Source of the DNA: Alcaligenaceae bacterium 429
GTDB lineage: Bacteria; Pseudomonadota; Gammaproteobacteria; Burkholderiales; Burkholderiaceae_B
Direction of reading: 5' to 3'
DNA length: 37,722 bases
NCBI GenBank assembly: GCA_004791645.1
Contig: SRSN01000006.1
Span: 1 to 37,722 of the forward strand
Part shown: piece after piece, positions 1,197-3,664 of the stretch
Layout of the letters: every line of letters begins with the position of its first letter
Numbering within the stretch: the first letter of the stretch is position 1
Translations under genes and position numbers: made by a program
The notes under the pieces: model-generated
Databases searched by the model: none
Seen by the model: the letters and a program-made list of their open reading frames with translations, nothing else
What the model was told of the DNA's origin: nothing

Positions 1197-1281
1197 CTAT
1201 GCTGAATACTAAGATTGCAGTTGAATAAGCATAGGTATGAGGTGTGAAGTAAGATGAAGGTTGTGAGCTCTATCTCTACTG

Positions 1282-2031
1282 TTATTTCACAGCGGCATTG
1301 CCACCATCAGCAAAAAGAGCTGATCCTGTCACGAAACTAGACATAGGGCTAGCAAGAAATAGTGTGGCAGATGCAATTTCTTCAGGCAATGCAATGCGCT
1401 TCATTGCGTGTAATCCAGCAGCCCACTCCTTAGTCTCCTGGTCTCCCGCTATGTCGGTATCAGTTCCGCCCGGTAGCAGAGCATTTGCACGTATGCCTTG
1501 GCTGGAATATTCCGCAGTGATGCCCTTTACCAGACCCATTAGTGCTGCTTTAGAAGCACCATAGGCCGTCATGTTGGGTAGACCTACGCTAGTGCCTACG
1601 AAACTCGAGGTGAAAACAATAGACCCGCCACCACGTTGAAGCATGGCAGGTATCTGACTACGAGCACCAAGAAAAGCTGCGGTGAGATTAGTGTCCAGTG
1701 TCTCTTGCCATTCCTCTAGCGTTAATTCAGTCAAAGGTTTAACAGCACCTACAATACCTGCGTTGTTGATTGCAATATCTAGTCCGCCAAACTTACTGAG
1801 AGCGGTTTCGATTAGCTGATCGTGCGTGTGGGTACAAGAAATATCTCCCGCCACAACTTCGGCGCGGCCGCCACTATCGTGGATTGAATGGGCCACCTCG
1901 TTGAGCAAGGTTTTGCGTCTTGCGGTGAGAACTACCGCGGCCCCGTGTGCAGCAAACATTATTGCTATAGCGCGGCCTATCCCCGAGGATGCTCCTGTAA
2001 TAATGGCAACCTTTCCATCAAGCAAAGCCAT
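1282..2031 (-). CDS. SDR family NAD(P)-dependent oxidoreductase
   Basis: A classical short-chain dehydrogenase/reductase of about 249 residues. It has the glycine-rich cofactor motif TGASSGIG near the N-terminus, the NNAG motif mid-protein, the catalytic Ser (TSSFVG) and Tyr-x-x-x-Lys (YGASK), and the C-terminal VTGSALFADGG segment. The substrate cannot be told from sequence. I place the start at the ATG at 2031 because AAGGAG (2046-2041) sits 9 bases upstream of it. The in-frame ATG at 2040 directly abuts that site. The gene is monocistronic as far as visible. A perfect 13-base palindrome, CTAGCTAAGCTAG (2080-2092), about 50 bases upstream is a possible operator. Confidence 0.85.
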   Translation of the reverse strand: MALLDGKVAIITGASSGIGRAIAIMFAAHGAAVVLTARRKTLLNEVAHSIHDSGGRAEVVAGDISCTHTHDQLIETALSKFGGLDIAINNAGIVGAVKPLTELTLEEWQETLDTNLTAAFLGARSQIPAMLQRGGGSIVFTSSFVGTSVGLPNMTAYGASKAALMGLVKGITAEYSSQGIRANALLPGGTDTDIAGDQETKEWAAGLHAMKRIALPEEIASATLFLASPMSSFVTGSALFADGGNAAVK

Positions 2032-2079
2032 ATGTGACATCTCCTTTGTTTTCTATCGAGAACTCACATCGTATGTGCG

Positions 2080-2092
2080 CTAGCTAAGCTAG
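2080..2092. promoter_or_regulatory. Palindrome upstream of the SDR gene
   Basis: CTAGCT-A-AGCTAG is a perfect dyad about 50 bases before the SDR start, where an operator would be expected. No regulator gene is adjacent. The rest of 2041-2224 shows nothing I can name. Confidence 0.3.
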
Positions 2093-2224
2093 GAACTCTG
2101 TTTCTTGCTGCAAAGTCTGTCTCAGAGCATTGAAGAGTATCTCGAAACAAAGTATCTGCCATTACACCTGTTGAGGGAAAGAAGAGGCCGCTTGCATCTT
2201 TAGAGTTACTAAATAATCTACAGA

Positions 2225-2638
2225 TTAGGATTTGATATAAAGCAGAACGGCTATTTCAATGAGATAGAAAAAAAGAATGCATGTAAGGGATAGGCATGAG
2301 GCGTAGAATGCGGTCCTTTTACCTGAGTGCTCACCCTCCAGTCGTATACTGAAAACGATGATGCCAACAATAAAAAAGCAAAGATAATAGGGTGGCACTA
2401 CATTGATAGAGGTTGAAACGACAGATGATACGGCTATTTGTGGTGCAGCAAAAAATAGCCGCACAACCAGAGCCAGCCCTGCGATTAGGTACACACTCAA
2501 GAAAGGGCGGTGTATTTTGATGGTGGGGGAGCGTTTCCCCAGCCAAGAAAGGCCTAGTCCTATGATAAAAGTAATCACAATAAATGCTACAGCAAATATC
2601 ACACCGACTAAAAAGAGCGGGGGGGGGGCTGCTGTCAT
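2225..2638 (-). CDS. Small membrane protein with poly-C tract at its start
   Basis: I do not recognise this family. The 137-residue product has about four hydrophobic helices (roughly residues 9-30, 45-66, 80-96 and 112-134), joined by basic loops such as GKRSPTIKIHR, so it should be an inner-membrane protein. I choose the ATG at 2638 because AAAGG lies 7 bases upstream; a TTG start one codon earlier is also open. Codons 4-7 (Ala-Pro-Pro-Pro) are encoded by an uninterrupted run of ten C (plus-strand G at 2619-2628). Gain or loss of one base would shift the frame and abolish the protein. The gene lies directly downstream of yicC on the same strand, separated by a strong terminator, leaving under 40 bases for a promoter. 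Confidence 0.6.
   Translation of the reverse strand: MTAAPPPLFLVGVIFAVAFIVITFIIGLGLSWLGKRSPTIKIHRPFLSVYLIAGLALVVRLFFAAPQIAVSSVVSTSINVVPPYYLCFFIVGIIVFSIRLEGEHSGKRTAFYASCLSLTCILFFYLIEIAVLLYIKS
2619..2628. repeat. Homopolymeric (C)10/(G)10 tract in a reading frame
   Basis: Ten consecutive G on the plus strand are ten C in codons 4-7 of the minus-strand membrane-protein gene. It is the longest mononucleotide G/C run I noticed in the window. Such tracts near a start codon are typical of slipped-strand phase-variable genes. Confidence 0.85.
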
Positions 2639-2676
2639 CAATACGCCTTTAACATCAGGTGTGCGACTAAGTACAC

Positions 2677-2712
2677 AAAAAAATACCCACCAAAATTATA
2701 GTGGTGGGTATT
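2677..2712 (-). terminator. Strong intrinsic terminator after yicC
   Basis: Read on the minus strand, AATACCCACCA and TGGTGGGTATT form a perfect 11-bp stem (plus-strand 2682-2692 with 2702-2712) and a 9-base loop. A run of T follows (A7 at 2677-2683 on the plus strand). It begins about 29 bases past the yicC stop. Confidence 0.9.
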
Positions 2713-2740
2713 CGTTGAGCTTATTGTTCTTTAGTTAGTG

Positions 2741-3664
2741 TTACTCGATATTCTGCGCCTGTTCACGCATCTGCTCAATCAGAAGCTTCAAATCAATCGC
2801 TGCTTCAGTCACCGTCAACGAACCTGCTTTAGAACCCAGAGTATTAGCTTCACGGTTCATTTCTTGGAACAGAAAGTCCAGGCGCTTGCCGCTACTGCCC
2901 TTACGCTGGCGTTTATTGCCAGTGTCTTTGCCTTGCAGAATGTGTTGCAGTTCTTTTAGGTGAGAGCGCAGGCGAGTCAATTCTTCAGCAACGTCAGAAC
3001 GCAAGGAGAACAATGAGGCTTCTTGCGCAATACGTGCTGACAACTCTTCGCCAGAGATATGGCTAAAGCCTTCTGGATTAGCAAGGTTCAAGCTCTCGCG
3101 CAAACGGTCACTGATTTTGTTTTGCTGGTCTTGCAGCATTTGCGGAATGTGCTGTTCTACGTCAGCCACGATGCGCTGAATGTCTTCTGCAATGGTGAGC
3201 ATATCAGCGGCCAAGCGCTCACCTTCGCGCAAACGCGCTGCTTGGAAGTCTTGAAGGGCTTGCCCCAAGGCTTCTAAACAAGTCGCTTGCCACTGTTCCG
3301 CTTTTTCTTGAGTTTGCTCTTGCTGTTGCGATTGCATTAACTCTTGTAGTTTTGGGGCAGGGGTATCCGGAATAAAACTGCGAGCCAAGGCCAGTTCAGC
3401 GGCGAGCTTTTCTAGGTACGCCGGGTCTAAGCGGCTTTTCTGCACCAGCAGGTTTTTATGGAAAGAAAGACGCAGCTCGATTTTCCCACGCTGCAATGAC
3501 TCGCTTAAGCGCTCACGAACTTGGGCCTCAAGAAAGCGTAATTCTTCAGGAATGCGTAGATTCAGGTCTAGGTAGCGATTGTTGACGCTGCGCAGATCAA
3601 TGGTGATACTGCCTAGTTCTGACTCGGCGCGCGCGCTACCGAAAGCGGTCATACTGCTGATCAT
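2741..3664 (-). CDS. yicC: YicC/YloC family endoribonuclease
   Basis: A 307-residue YicC-family protein, near the usual length of about 290. The N-terminus MISSMTAFGSARAE matches the family opening, and the C-terminal DUF1732-type half contains LDFLFQEMNREANTLGSKAG. Members of this family cleave RNA; E. coli YicC is linked to small-RNA turnover. The middle (about residues 110-190) is rich in Gln/Glu and looks helical. The gene is divergent from rph, with 96 bases between the starts, and is followed by a strong terminator. No good ribosome binding site is visible, but the start agrees with the conserved N-terminus. Confidence 0.92.
   Translation of the reverse strand: MISSMTAFGSARAESELGSITIDLRSVNNRYLDLNLRIPEELRFLEAQVRERLSESLQRGKIELRLSFHKNLLVQKSRLDPAYLEKLAAELALARSFIPDTPAPKLQELMQSQQQEQTQEKAEQWQATCLEALGQALQDFQAARLREGERLAADMLTIAEDIQRIVADVEQHIPQMLQDQQNKISDRLRESLNLANPEGFSHISGEELSARIAQEASLFSLRSDVAEELTRLRSHLKELQHILQGKDTGNKRQRKGSSGKRLDFLFQEMNREANTLGSKAGSLTVTEAAIDLKLLIEQMREQAQNIE

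Follow-up and report, generated by a model that had tools for sequence, protein, structure and literature searches.

A small membrane protein gene of the Alcaligenaceae bacterium studied here carries a run of ten cytosines in its first codons. The most probable reading, at about 0.62, is that this run is a lineage-specific, slippage-prone C10 tract in a captured, prophage-type membrane gene, and that any switching it causes is incidental rather than maintained. The gene lies in a window (the whole stretch of DNA analysed, 37,722 nucleotides) from a genome whose assembly is fragmented, with 391 contigs and 89% completeness. The features discussed below are as follows.

1282 to 2040, minus strand: short-chain dehydrogenase (Pfam and ORF evidence), neighbour in a variable interval; without a DNA match there in relatives G008 and G011
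2225 to 2638 (stop codon included), minus strand: membrane protein gene, 137 aa, four predicted helices, of a prophage-type family without a named match (ORF, homologs, hydropathy, low-confidence model)
2619 to 2628, minus strand: C10 mononucleotide tract, codons 4 to 7, GCC CCC CCC CCG, encoding Ala-Pro-Pro-Pro
2644 to 2650, minus strand: ribosome-binding site region, AAAGGCG in the window and AAAGGTG in three close homologs
2677 to 2704, minus strand: terminator-like hairpin with a T run, located after yicC and immediately before the membrane protein gene

The tract and its gene

An earlier note on this DNA had described a ten-base tract at codons 4 to 7 of a 137-residue, four-helix membrane protein with a good ribosome-binding site, and its description holds up. 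Read directly, the uninterrupted run sits exactly at 2619 to 2628, C10 on the minus strand and G10 on the plus, where the letters are GGGGGGGGGG between the flanks AGAGC and CTGCT; on its own strand the gene begins ATG ACA GCA GCC CCC CCC CCG CTC. The remaining G or C runs within the window reach at most seven bases, with two G7 and no C run of seven or more. The ribosome-binding site AAAGG (2646 to 2650) stands 7 bases ahead of the ATG and is common to the close homologs. The whole start region, AAAGG(C/T)GTATT(G/A)ATGACAG, is common to the window copy and the three close homologs. The list of open reading frames had placed the start one codon earlier, at TTG 2641, but the homologs favour the ATG at 2638.

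Hydropathy gives four peak regions, and an AlphaFold model built from four sequences has four helices (residues 7 to 36, 43 to 73, 83 to 101, and 106 to 135), at a mean pLDDT of 55 that is too low for a fold search. Residues 1 to 6 precede the first helix in the model, which puts the Ala-Pro-Pro-Pro stretch (residues 4 to 7) at the very start of that helix, a position that might accommodate one more residue.

Is this open reading frame a real gene? Its conservation as a protein, on which the earlier note had made its proposal depend, is borne out by four homologs. Against the three closest, dN/dS is 0.14, 0.16, and 0.13 with dS of 1.0 to 1.25, figures to be taken as rough, since synonymous sites are nearly saturated; some of this divergence may also have arisen before the gene reached its present location. 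Judged by these comparisons, the ORF is a real gene under purifying selection. Searches of Pfam and PHROGs with single members, and of NCBIfam, PADLOC, and PDB sequences with an alignment of members, gave no match to a protein family above the cut-off. A scan of the gene's strand from 2000 to 3000 gave no promoter-like site, so that selection alone speaks for its expression. An Rfam search of 1200 to 3000 returned no match, and the fold of the leader mRNA is ordinary (z of -0.06).

Distribution and genomic setting

The family is rare, is found in Alcaligenaceae, and occurs partly in prophage settings. The protein is present in 3 of 101 genomes searched and, by an alignment search, in 3 of 268 family genomes (four places, two of them in the window's own genome), both counts including the own genome; among 369 class genomes sampled it is in the own genome only. 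A scan of genome contigs gave two loci, in Alcaligenes endophyticus (71% identity) and Corticimicrobacter populi (about 26 to 27%), both hosts belonging to other genera of the Alcaligenaceae and both genes identical letter for letter to those of G053 and G040. A scan of viral contigs gave one, IMGVR_UViG_2630968627_000002 (L059; about 72 to 73%), while phage and plasmid collections had no match at an E value of 0.01. The DNA pattern of the start region occurs in eight stretches of viral contigs. The protein is encoded in one of these (L061, which shares its record with L059), and the other seven have no tblastn match at an E value of 1. There are therefore four distinct homologs: a second copy in the own genome (L002, contig C79), the A. 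endophyticus gene (L004/L057), the viral gene (L059), and the C. populi gene (L005/L058). Aligned over its full length, the window copy is 72, 71, and 72% identical to the three close ones.

In the viral contig, the gene is flanked by an RdgC-like exonuclease and a DNA methyltransferase; about 4 kb off is an integrase. The second copy of the own genome (C79, 1514 to 1924; 72% identical to the window copy and without the tract) aligns to this viral locus over 1.5 kb at 87%, which indicates a second copy, of prophage type, in the own genome. For the A. endophyticus gene, an ORF about 1 kb away is integrase-like on sub-threshold Pfam matches only. These neighbourhoods point to a prophage-type setting in two or three of the four homologs, the C. 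populi gene not being counted because it adjoins an apparent ABC-transporter operon (by eye). An ORF near the latter gene may resemble the end of a large secreted protein. An immunity-protein role was considered on this ground and dropped, the two small neighbours tested giving no Pfam match.

What about the window copy itself? It has no prophage-type neighbours and sits between yicC and a DUF1176 gene, and its DNA similarity to the three close copies covers the gene plus up to about 15 to 30 bases upstream of the ATG. The DUF1176-yicC interval (1158 to 2740) holds the short-chain dehydrogenase and the membrane protein gene here; of the two relatives compared, G011 has about 90 bases between the two matches and G008 about 1.3 kb with a dehydrogenase-like ORF (by eye). 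The variability of the interval in these two comparisons suggests that the membrane protein gene is an acquired passenger at a variable spot. Two terminator-like sites were found in 2000 to 3000 against a shuffle mean of 1.0; as shuffled sequences give about as many promoter-like and terminator-like sites, these calls are weak evidence. A CCCACC...GGTGGG inverted repeat similar to the hairpin follows yicC in G008 (by eye).

Origin of the tract and effect of its length

The tract occurs in none of the four homologs (the first 45 bases of each were read), whose longest C run is 4. At its site they have GCC CCT GCA (three of the four) or GCC CCG CCA (one of the four), and in the alignment the window copy has one proline codon more. 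Comparison of tract length across relatives, which the earlier note had put forward as a check, thus finds the ORF kept as a protein and the tract missing, so that the case for a switch is weakened but not refuted. The homologs are 26 to 72% identical to the window copy and thus not close orthologs; being at most 72% identical, they do not give the age of the tract within the species. As far as sampled, the tract appears specific to the lineage of the window copy.

How might it have arisen? CCC makes up 65 of the 465 proline codons (14%) in the long ORFs of the window, and the chance of reaching GCC CCC CCC CCG for Ala-Pro-Pro-Pro by codon choice alone is about 0.0007. This figure, together with the extra proline codon, suggests a slippage-like origin, and growth by slippage or by a gain of 3 bases is probably the simplest account. 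In the proposed course of events, a C4 of the kind seen in the homologs would have been lengthened by substitutions, and one in-frame proline codon would have been gained, probably through strand slippage or a 3-base duplication.

What would a further change of length do? In silico, with lengths of 4 to 15 tried, the full-length frame is kept only at 4, 7, 10, and 13. C10 is in frame for the 137-aa product and is therefore the ON state; C13 would give 138 aa, C11 102 aa, C9 9 aa, and C8 101 aa. By this in silico reading, slippage changes expression through frameshift to a truncated product. Single-base slips would truncate the protein (at C9 or C11) and put a minority of cells in an OFF state from which they could revert. 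C/G tracts of 9 to 11 vary within Bordetella cultures, according to the available part of a study of that genus (Gogol et al. 2007, PMC1891110). By analogy, present-day slippage of the C10 is likely, and so are occasional frameshifted cells. A transcriptional role was set aside because the tract lies inside the ORF.

G/C tracts across the genome and the genus

Chance expectations were taken from Markov models of order 1 to 4 fitted to the 37.7-kb window. They give 0.005 to 0.03 runs of at least ten G or C per window, which makes the C10 unusual for a single window. Scaled to the 3.54-Mb genome they give 0.4 to 3.1, and two are found, which makes it unexceptional for the genome. A search with G8 hit 26 overlapping places in the own genome, corresponding to 18 tracts, of which twelve have 8 bases, four have 9, and two have 10. 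The 18 tracts of at least 8 compare with 12 to 46 expected, and the six of at least 9 with 2.3 to 12, so there is no clear excess of G/C tracts in the genome. The order-2 model alone gives a mild excess of tracts of at least 9 (6 observed versus 2.3 expected), which would fit some role for them. Within the genus, a G9 search hits 8 places in the own genome and 0 to 16 in each of the ten other members searched; at least 6 of the 16 in G008 are within about 35 bases of contig starts. A separate oddity comes from the genome of a relative, where from G012:C1:2416526 onwards at least 105 consecutive bases are G, perhaps an assembly or sequencing artefact.

By a longest-ORF heuristic, with functions judged by eye, 13 of the 18 tracts lie inside long open frames and 5 apparently outside. 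Four of the 13, the window C10 included, fall within about the first 35 codons, and one further frame runs off its contig. The only other C10/G10 of the genome (L030, 1501 to 1510, contig C375) occupies codons 24 to 27 of an ORF whose N terminus resembles an FAD/NAD-binding oxidoreductase, with VVVVGGGVIG looking like a Rossmann motif (by eye). Such a motif is an ordinary place for GGG codons. A search by DNA similarity for this second tract in 12 relatives gave no match, leaving it in 1 of 13 genomes, the own only. Elsewhere, a C8 (L009, 1501 to 1508, contig C51) stands at codons 6 to 8 of an ORF that by eye resembles a regulator of the GntR type; directly behind the tract comes an in-frame ATG, and the tract may therefore instead precede the true start.

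Weighing the explanations

The earlier note's central proposal, that the tract switches the protein by changing length, survives in part. The tract is real and in frame, it sits at the 5' end of a gene whose protein is conserved, and kindred tracts vary in Bordetella, in the available part of the Gogol et al. report (PMC1891110); the lack of the tract in all four homologs and of a clear genome-wide excess tells against a maintained switch. Phase variation of the gene is plausible but unproven, its slippage-prone tract making it a switching candidate. Would such a switch be maintained? A true contingency locus, with selection keeping the C10 in order to toggle a membrane protein of, for example, phage-exclusion or surface-related function, is unlikely. 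The placement at codons 4 to 7 with truncating OFF states, the purifying selection on the gene, the polymorphic kindred tracts of Bordetella (in the same portion of PMC1891110), and the mild excess of tracts of at least 9 under one of the four models would suit it. A maintained switch sits poorly with a tract absent from every homolog, with a genome in which G/C tracts are in no clear excess and only 4 of 18 of at least 8 fall within about the first 35 codons (heuristic), with the only other C10/G10 of the genome falling in an apparently ordinary GGG motif of Rossmann type (by eye), and with a protein that matches no family above the cut-off in Pfam, PHROGs, NCBIfam, PADLOC, or PDB. More doubtful still is a variant in which a prophage-derived membrane protein, such as a phage-exclusion factor, was captured by the chromosome and then gained a C10 switch that its prophage relatives lack.

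At the opposite end, the tract would be a product of chance codon drift in a prophage gene left stranded and perhaps in decay, either stable enough or in so unimportant a gene that length changes are inconsequential. The genome-wide count of runs of at least ten (2 versus 0.4 to 3.1) agrees with drift, as do similarity to the prophage copies that is limited to the gene and a short leader, presence in just 3 of 268 family genomes, and the lack of a promoter-like site in 2000 to 3000. Yet the frame has no stop or frameshift and dN/dS is well below 1, although much of that divergence may be older than the gene's present position, and drift of this kind is quite unlikely. A tract length wrong in the assembly is highly improbable: there is a single assembly and homopolymers are error-prone, but at ten the frame stays open over all 137 aa of an ORF that, from its start codon on, matches homologs, and just 4, 7, 10, and 13 among lengths 4 to 15 would keep it. 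The preferred reading, an incidental slippage-prone tract in a captured gene, combines a slippage origin, present-day slippage, and switching that we infer to be incidental rather than that of a maintained contingency locus.

If the tract does switch, the birth of a contingency locus would be directly readable here, because the same genome and a viral contig both contain relatives of the gene without the tract. If it does not, it is an example of a 10-base G/C run arising in an ordinary gene, and tract length alone would be weak evidence for phase variation.

Comparison with known systems

Among the closest points of comparison are the viral gene (L059) and the A. endophyticus gene (L057), 72% and 71% identical to the window protein, respectively, and alike in the start region. 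They differ from it in being without the C10, and the viral gene is flanked by methyltransferase and RdgC-like genes, versus yicC and the short-chain dehydrogenase in the window.

For mononucleotide tracts more broadly, the available part of Orsi et al. (PMC2831843) describes poly(A) and poly(T) tracts as placed 5' and does not cover C/G. In Campylobacter jejuni, poly-G/poly-C phase-variable genes have tracts of G8 to G12 with ON lengths assigned for genes, and they are said to switch at about 1e-3 per division, in the portion of PMC4965091 available. Of the 29 loci in strain NCTC11168 whose tracts reach at least 7, 28 were assayed as phase-variable, according to that portion; the genome studied here, by contrast, has 18 tracts of at least 8 in 3.5 Mb, a number within the range of chance.

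Closer to home is Bordetella, for which the available part of Gogol et al. (2007, PMC1891110) describes a screen that took C/G tracts longer than 8 as putatively phase-variable and left prophage tracts out. The Bordetella tracts vary among strains and within cultures and lie in genes listed under the cell envelope, whereas the window product is a small predicted membrane protein of a family without a named match. Alleles of tcfA (G9 and G10) and bapC (G11) were mixed within single cultures, and eight of eight Escherichia coli clones made from the DNA of a strain with mostly the G10 allele of tcfA carried allele mixtures, as reported in the same portion (PMC1891110). The tcfA G9 and bapC G11 genes resemble the window gene in belonging to Alcaligenaceae, in having a C/G tract of 9 to 11 within the ORF, and in frame shifts that are predicted to truncate the product, as far as that portion of the study describes them (PMC1891110).
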